NCBI GenBank assembly: GCA_025454855.1
Contig: JALONS010000007.1
Span: 1-41,907 of the forward strand
From: Arcicella sp.
Lineage (GTDB): Bacteria > Bacteroidota > Bacteroidia > Cytophagales > Spirosomataceae
Direction: 5' to 3'
DNA: 41,907 nt
The position numbers and the translations under genes are program-made. Positions 3,402-4,212 of this stretch are shown here, in pieces. How positions within the stretch are numbered: position 1 is the stretch's first letter; every line of letters starts with the position of its first letter. The notes under the pieces were generated by a model that made no database searches, was not told where the DNA came from, and saw only the letters and a program-made list of their open reading frames with translations.

Positions 3402-3415
3402 TTTCTCAAAAAGTT

Positions 3416-3430
3416 TGGCACGGCATTTGT
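3416..3430 (+). promoter_or_regulatory. sigma54-like -24/-12 promoter (copy 1)
   Basis: TGGCACG-N4-TTGT, compared with consensus TGGCACG-N4-TTGC. Confidence 0.5.
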
Positions 3431-3517
3431 AATACCTAAAATATCCACGCAATGCCGCCACAAAGTGAGGAGTCGAAAGACAAAATTTTAAAAATTCATT
3501 TACCCGTTCCGAAAGTT

Positions 3518-3532
3518 TGGCACGGTAATTGA
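3518..3532 (+). promoter_or_regulatory. sigma54-like -24/-12 promoter (copy 2)
   Basis: TGGCACG-N4-TTGA, 102 bp downstream of copy 1. Confidence 0.5.
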
Positions 3533-3542
3533 AAATCAAAAA

Positions 3543-4176
3543 AGAGGAAGTCTAAACGAAGATTTCTATTATTAACTGACAAAAATCCAATCTTTTTGCC
3601 GCCACGAGAAGTATTTGGGTAAAGCTAATGAGTTTGAGTTTTGGTGATAACTCGCCAAAACTCAAACGAAAAGCCTCGATATAGCTGAACCGAATCTTTG
3701 AAAAATTACCGTGGCGGAATTCATCACACAATTCCTTTCTCGCAGAAATTTTCTGCCTAATTTACCACATTTTTTCAAGTAAAAGTTTCATCAGATATTA
3801 GTTCATCATTGGTTCATTTTAAGAATCAACCGTTGATTACTAATTGTTAAAGCATTCCCCGAAGAAAGCAAAAATTTAAAAATGTTGGCGGACGTTTTTA
3901 GAGGGCAATCTTCGGGAAAGACCTTACGGGGAGGAAAGTTTTGCACGCTGCAATGTGTTGGCGGACGCAAAACGGATGTTGCAAAACGATCAATTCCAAA
4001 TCCGTATTAGCAAAGGACGTGGAGTAAGTTGATTTAAGAAGTTGGCGGACTTTTTGGTCAATCCTCCACCAAACCTTTGTATTTTAGAAGTGTATAATCC
4101 TTACTTTATAAAATTTTTATAATCCAACCCATAATACGAACCCTGTTGAGTTTTACACTTTTCAGGGTTTTTTTAT
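3543..4176 (+). ncRNA. candidate structured non-coding RNA with three UUGGCGGA-loop domains
   Basis: No credible ORF; nested perfect stems 3599-3717; three stem domains 3858-3916, 3938-3987, 4019-4069 each with loop TTGGCGGA; terminator-like hairpin 4140-4170; next gene has its own -7 box. Confidence 0.6.
4138..4176 (+). terminator. Rho-independent-like terminator
   Basis: AACCCTG ... CAGGGTT followed by TTTTTT. Confidence 0.65.
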
Positions 4177-4212
4177 TGTTCATTTCTCTGAAAATTCATC
4201 TCTGAAAACCCG

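Follow-up and report, generated by a model that had tools for sequence, protein, structure and literature searches.

Introduction

To our knowledge, RNA sponges offer one or a few pairing sites. The Qrr RNAs of Vibrio are small RNAs under sigma-54 control. They comprise several siblings that share a conserved core and are encoded at scattered genomic sites (PMC4211561), and the small RNAs described below can be likened to them in their conserved core and scattered loci, while sequences and hosts differ. The nearest precedent for the RNA reported here, which we call RNA1, is CrfA of Caulobacter crescentus, a stem-loop of which pairs with 5'-UUUCCUCCCU-3' of the sibling sRNAs SisA-D (PMC12559287). 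Like CrfA, RNA1 is complementary to a single-stranded core shared by a family of small RNAs. Unlike CrfA, it repeats one loop three times and has a candidate partner with several complementary loops, and its sequence and phylum are unrelated. Sponge action has been shown for CrfA, whereas for RNA1 we infer it. ROOL, GOLLD and OLE are large bacterial RNAs of unknown function that make intermolecular contacts, kissing loops included (PMC12286853). They are homo-oligomers, made of RNA alone in the case of ROOL and GOLLD, whereas RNA1 and its candidate partner RNA3 would form a hetero-complex through their complementary loops.

Extent, promoters and neighbors of RNA1

RNA1 is a predicted structured RNA at approximately 3440-4176 on the plus strand of the window (the whole 41.9-kb stretch of DNA that was analyzed). 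It is about 730-735 nt long when counted from its first promoter, P1, and contains no long ORF. The preliminary description had confined the structured RNA to 212 bases; that structured stretch is real, but it is too short, since RNA1 runs from about 3440 to a terminator near 4139-4175. The features are as follows.

3414-3429, plus strand: P1, sigma-54-type -24/-12 element TTTGGCACGGCATTTG; predicted RNA1 start near 3440
3440-4176, plus strand: RNA1, predicted whole transcript, from BLASTN homologues
3516-3531, plus strand: P2, second sigma-54-type element TTTGGCACGGTAATTG; predicted start near 3542
3592-3611, plus strand: conserved 5' hairpin CTTTTTGCCGCCACGAGAAG presenting CCGCCA (3599-3604)
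3632-3667, plus strand: long hairpin GTTTGAGTTTTGGTGA/TCGCCAAAACTCAAAC, arms 94% complementary
3712-3718, plus strand: fourth TGGCGGA motif (GTGGCGGAAT)
3858-3916, plus strand: Domain 1, outer stem CCCGAAGA/TCTTCGGG, inner hairpin loop TTGGCGGA (3885-3892)
3925-4006, plus strand: Domain 2, TACGG/CCGTA and GTTTTGCA/TGCAAAAC stems, hairpin TGTG-TTGGCGGA-CGCA (loop 3958-3965)
4019-4069, plus strand: Domain 3, outer stem GTGGAG/CTCCAC, inner loop TTGGCGGA (4042-4049)
4119-4134, plus strand: tail ATAATCCAACCCATAA, antisense of core TTATGGGTTAGGGTTAT, a core common to small sigma-54-linked RNAs
4139-4175, plus strand: intrinsic terminator from the fold, ACCCTG...CAGGGT followed by a T run

Within the window's family, RNA1 homologues were found in four genera, and their genomic location varies. 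BLASTN recovered the whole stretch in G007, G005 and G003 and shorter matches in G006, G035 and G012. Together, DNA and covariance-model searches placed RNA1 in six of the eight genomes of the window's genus, with degenerate copies in G002 and G006, and in two other genera, represented by G035 (the public MAG 'Cytophagales bacterium bin50') and G012. A further homologue, in G008, is described below. P1 lies at the same place in G007, G005, G003 (as TCTGGCACGG), G035, G012 and G008; the -24/-12 element is found upstream of all seven loop-intact homologues, G008 among them, and is absent from the degenerate G006. The motif TTTGGCACGNNNNTTG is rare (1-7 occurrences per genome), and its sole occurrence in G012 is the RNA1 promoter. 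P2 is kept in the window's genus and in G008 and is degenerate in G035 and G012. All five genomes tested encode RpoN, and G000, G007 and G012 each carry two genes for a sigma-54 DNA-binding domain (PF04552). RNA1 would thus be transcribed from sigma-54-type promoters, with start sites at the predicted positions. The terminator is conserved in the window's genus and in G008; a simple terminator scan left it unflagged, probably because its loop exceeds 8 nt.

The genes around RNA1 vary. Its neighbors in the window are an HhH-GPD DNA glycosylase gene and a downstream TonB receptor gene, and an orthologous receptor also lies downstream in G008. In G012 a tmRNA gene directly follows RNA1 (L008 1400-2172), and in G035 the neighbors are other genes. 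In G008 and the window's genus alike, RNA1 immediately precedes an orthologous TonB receptor gene, a position that a cis-acting leader (a riboswitch or attenuator) of that receptor would occupy; the terminator at 4139-4175 would then be the switch. This is very improbable in view of the location of RNA1 elsewhere in G035 and G012, where other genes follow it, and of the motif TAACTTTG, which we take to be a Bacteroidota-type -7 box, between terminator and receptor in the window (4213) and in G008. As read from its sequence, RNA1 is an independent gene, with variable neighbors across genera and its own sigma-54-type promoter and terminator.

RNA1 had no Rfam match at gathering score, and what scored below that threshold were hits to unrelated families at chance level; the covariance models of ROOL, GOLLD and OLE (Rfam 15) likewise gave no match at gathering score. 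A known family was rejected for RNA1; one match in L008 belongs to the neighboring tmRNA and one in L248 to a tRNA. Its proposal as a candidate undescribed structured ncRNA, to be checked against Rfam and by conservation and covariation in relatives, is borne out by the lack of an Rfam family, by the homologues in other genera and by covariation, with conservation seen in four genera of the family. A search of 85,000 species and viral contigs for the triple-loop pattern contained, among the matches listed, one true homologue, L035; the others, where inspected, are apparently repeat-rich or coding stretches. The covariance model R1 gave no convincing homologue outside the family among approximately 390 genomes of the order; because the model also failed to detect the G008 copy, absences based on it count as weak evidence. 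No plasmid match was found.

Conserved loops in covarying stems

The three stem domains with GTTGGCGGAC loops lie where the preliminary description had placed them, with every arm and loop accounted for. The loop TTGGCGGA occurs on the plus strand at 3885, 3958 and 4042, three copies within 165 nt, and six copies are present in the window against 0.9 expected from shuffling. The fold of 3850-4180 reaches -102 kcal/mol, compared with a shuffled mean of -75 (z -4.7), and its minimum-energy structure includes all three domains. In folds, pairing is possible between the outer U-U and G-A of the loop (U-A, U.G), which may leave fewer than 8 nt unpaired.

We aligned the structures manually, stem by stem, and all arms were verified in order in the loci. 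Domain 1 has 18 pairs, with 96.8% of cells paired across seven sequences and nine pairs changed on both sides. Domain 2 has 17 pairs (94.1% paired, eight sequences including G008), and with G008 it shows eight two-sided changes against 2.1 in shuffles. Of the 16 pairs of Domain 3, 12 are changed on both sides in seven sequences. Over all domains (51 pairs), 91% of 357 cells are paired, with 23 two-sided changes against 9.6 in shuffles, and pairing collapses in slid control alignments. While the stems differ by compensatory substitution, the loops are invariant UUGGCGGA, with the exception of loop 1 of G006, which reads TTTGCGAA; the Domain 1 loop is lost in G008. The earlier view of one recognition motif shown repeatedly, on stems that differ around an identical loop, is therefore well founded, given strong covariation with fixed loops.

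The 5' CCGCCA motif (3599) is kept in all aligned homologues, and the exact sequence TTTGCCGCCACGA occurs only inside RNA1 in G000, G005, G035 and G012; it is present in G008 too, and G007 has the variant TTTACCGCCATGA at the same place. At the position of the long hairpin, all six aligned genomes have a hairpin with altered sequence. The fourth TGGCGGA motif is kept in the window's genus and in G035 and reads TGGTGGCA in G012.

CsrA prefers A(N)GGA. The sponges CsrB, CsrC and RsmZ resemble RNA1 in that several hairpins show one short GGA-containing loop, and the preliminary description had drawn this likeness while noting that CsrA is not generally expected in Bacteroidota. In line with this, the CsrA domain (PF02599) was not found in any of five genomes tested, with E. 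coli and B. subtilis positive as controls. The likeness itself fails, because the hosts tested have no CsrA gene and the loop is not of the CsrA type, with GGA present in GCGGA without a preceding AN (GGCGGA, not ANGGA); RNA1 also differs from these sponges in having complementary RNA partners. With neither a CsrA gene in the five genomes nor A(N)GGA loops, a Csr/Rsm sponge RNA was rejected. A different protein could nonetheless read the GGCGGA loops and be titrated by RNA1 as CsrA is by CsrB; decoys of this kind usually repeat one loop on stems that differ. We consider this unlikely, as CsrA is absent from the five genomes tested and a protein decoy would not predict co-occurring RNAs with complementary loops. 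The new ligand foreseen earlier is thus correct in not being CsrA; it is likely to be an RNA with a complementary CCGCCA loop and not a GGA-reading protein.

RNA3, a candidate partner with complementary loops

We searched 223 genomes of the family for the pattern TGGCA, a gap, and CAT-N-CCGCCA-N-ATG, which gave 16 genomes. Nine lack a sigma-54-like -12 element, namely G088, G168 and seven of one genus whose matches are near-identical and apparently coding. The remaining seven, G008 and the six in which RNA1 is intact, carry an RNA that we call RNA3. It has a sigma-54-like TGGCA followed by a CAU[NCCGCCAN]AUG hairpin, and its length is predicted from sequence at about 380-580 nt. CCGCCA, the complement of UGGCGG, occurs five times in RNA3 of the window's genus and three times in that of G035 and G012, compared with 0.04-0.08 in shuffles. 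Since only the first CCGCCA was used to find RNA3, the remaining motifs are independent evidence. In unconstrained whole-RNA folds the motif is mostly in apical hairpin loops, with exact placement in six-base apical loops three times (G000, G007, G005), twice (G003, G035) or once (G012). The 5'-most CCGCCA tends to pair with a 3' GGCGGA in these folds, so the small 5' hairpin is only a local possibility. Covariation is seen in the RNA3 stems, where 8 of 20 pairs are changed on both sides against 2.2 in shuffles, and RNA3 loop 1, UCCGCCAA, is an 8/8 complement of UUGGCGGA. RNA3 had no Rfam match above chance.

The 3' end of RNA3 has a near-invariant stretch, AACTACTTAGGCGGATTGCGTAAAGGCTC, before the terminator; it contains GGCGGA and is kept across four genera, although most of RNA3 has diverged (loci L343, G000:C156, minus strand, and L344-L349). 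None of the viral contigs carries this RNA3 tail.

G008 had been missed by the RNA1 covariance model. Because it carries RNA3, its DNA was searched for RNA1, and RNA1 was found. A 380-kb sample of the main contig was scanned for the sigma-54 motif, and a tandem pair of sites, at L351:9654 and 9790, pointed to a locus with TTTTTGCCGCCACGA, the TACGG/CCGTA stem and two UUGGCGGA loops in new stems (AACUA/UAGUU); two loops survive and the third is lost. From the two RNA3 loops of G008 that read CCGCUA, which pairs with UGGCGG only through one G.U, the G008 RNA1 loops had been guessed as UUAGCGGA. That prediction failed, as they read UUGGCGGA. All six genomes with intact RNA1 encode RNA3, and co-occurrence of the two RNAs gives Fisher p values of 0.0006 at genus level and 0.03 within the genus, uncorrected for kinship; it is partly phylogenetic, four of the seven genomes being of one genus.

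RNA1 itself holds two CCGCCA motifs (3455 and 3599) that are complementary to its own loops, so the loops may pair in cis. The 5' CCGCCA hairpin would then kiss one UUGGCGGA loop and organize the tertiary fold. RNA1 would in that case have a structural or ligand-binding function, and its match to RNA3 would reflect a shared folding motif. The two motifs and the UGGCGGA at 3712 beside the three loops, the retention of the 3599 motif in all aligned homologues and the conserved GGCGGA in the 3' part of RNA3 are all consistent with such a fold. Yet one or two CCGCCA motifs leave three identical loops unexplained, and the complement also sits on separate transcripts, RNA3 and RNA2, that co-occur with RNA1. 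We therefore regard pairing in cis as a minority possibility, and trans pairing between RNA1 and its partners as well supported in silico.

RNA2, the RNA1 tail and sibling small RNAs

RNA2 was found by searching for CCGCCA downstream of a sigma-54 site. Its 5' end can form ACAU-[ACCGCCAG]-AUGU with one CCGCCA loop, which is kept in G000, G003, G005, G007 and G035; the RNA2 relative of G012 is without CCGCCA. G001, in which no RNA1 was detected, has lost the RNA2 promoter, and its homologous loop is UUCAGCAA. The RNA2 loci L282 (G005:C16), L283 (G003:C248) and L209 (G000:C153) have two to five tandem copies of core plus terminator with a period of approximately 100-130 nt.

Just 5' of its terminator, RNA1 has the tail AUAAUCCAACCCAUAA, antisense to UUAUGGGUUAGGGUUAU. 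The core UUAUGGGUUAGGGUUAU immediately precedes the terminator hairpin in RNA2 as well as in several small sigma-54-linked RNAs across the family. In the window's genome the tail and core form 15 pairs around one bulged A. The conserved tail is the best core duplex site in all four intact genomes of the genus, and in G035 and G012 it is so for three sibling cores out of four; in the degenerate G006 and G002 the best site is not in the RNA1 tail. Duplex energies among intact homologues are modest relative to shuffles (z -0.2 to -3.8). Conserved complementarity of RNA1 is thus present both to the shared sRNA core, through the tail, and to the CCGCCA loops of RNA3 and RNA2.

The siblings, each approximately 100 nt long, occur in several genera of the window's family. 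Their common features are a -24/-12 site of sigma-54-like type, a terminator and the core TT[AT]TGGGTTAGGGTTAT (or ...GGGTAAT). They include L289 (G000:C281), L284, L287, L290, L295, L305-L312 and L318-L320; five sibling loci scanned had no Rfam match. The sibling core was not found in the sampled G008 DNA (7% of the contig). In G005 (L281, C8:114500-115900), tandem repeats with a 97-nt period contain GTGGTTAGGATTATCAAATTTATGGGTTAGGATTAT, which merely resembles the core. At L269 (G007:C35), AACCAACCCATGAAA lies at the start codon of a sigma-54-linked mRNA and resembles the RNA1 tail. This mRNA is possibly a target of the sibling RNAs that RNA1 mimics, and from this single case, one sigma-54-linked mRNA of G007, comes the idea that siblings might pair at start codons (AACCAACCCAUG).

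Proposed role of RNA1

Complementary loops on co-occurring RNAs suggest that RNA1 and RNA3 probably grip each other to regulate genes. Our main reading, to which we assign a probability of roughly 70%, is that RNA1 is a multivalent base-pairing regulator or sponge/decoy, expressed from sigma-54 promoters, that forms kissing loops with RNA3 and RNA2. RNA1 would be made as an independent regulatory RNA, and its up to three identical UUGGCGGA loops would serve as kissing-loop hands for RNAs bearing the complement. These would be RNA3, with three to five CCGCCA motifs, mostly in hairpin loops, and its own sigma-54-like promoter, and RNA2, with one CCGCCA hairpin at its 5' end. The RNA1 tail would additionally pair with UUAUGGGUUAGGGUUAU of RNA2 and of the small sigma-54-linked RNAs. 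Either RNA1 would sequester its partners or the partners would sequester RNA1, thereby setting the level of free RNA acting on mRNAs. What the in silico analysis shows is structure, conservation, the anatomy of promoter and terminator, complementarity and co-occurrence; from there we infer transcription, cellular pairing, a sponge function and the direction in which it acts.

More tentatively, RNA1 and RNA3 might constitute a natural RNA fastener, in which the two RNAs, both under sigma-54 control and each bearing an array of identical loops complementary to that of the other, join in a hetero-multimeric complex that sets the free amount of each and of the small-RNA family. We found no precedent for RNA1-RNA3 pairing from Bacteroidota or from sigma-54 systems in the open-licence literature. 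In Flavobacterium psychrophilum, the sigma-54 regulon covers envelope stress and gliding motility (PMC9723704).

In conclusion, two separate RNAs have repeated, mutually complementary loops that are kept while their stems drift, in a phylum where post-transcriptional control has been little studied. If the proposed pairing is true, RNA1 and RNA3 would be a natural example in which multivalent RNA-RNA recognition can be tested directly, and would reveal an RNA layer within the sigma-54 regulon of Bacteroidota.
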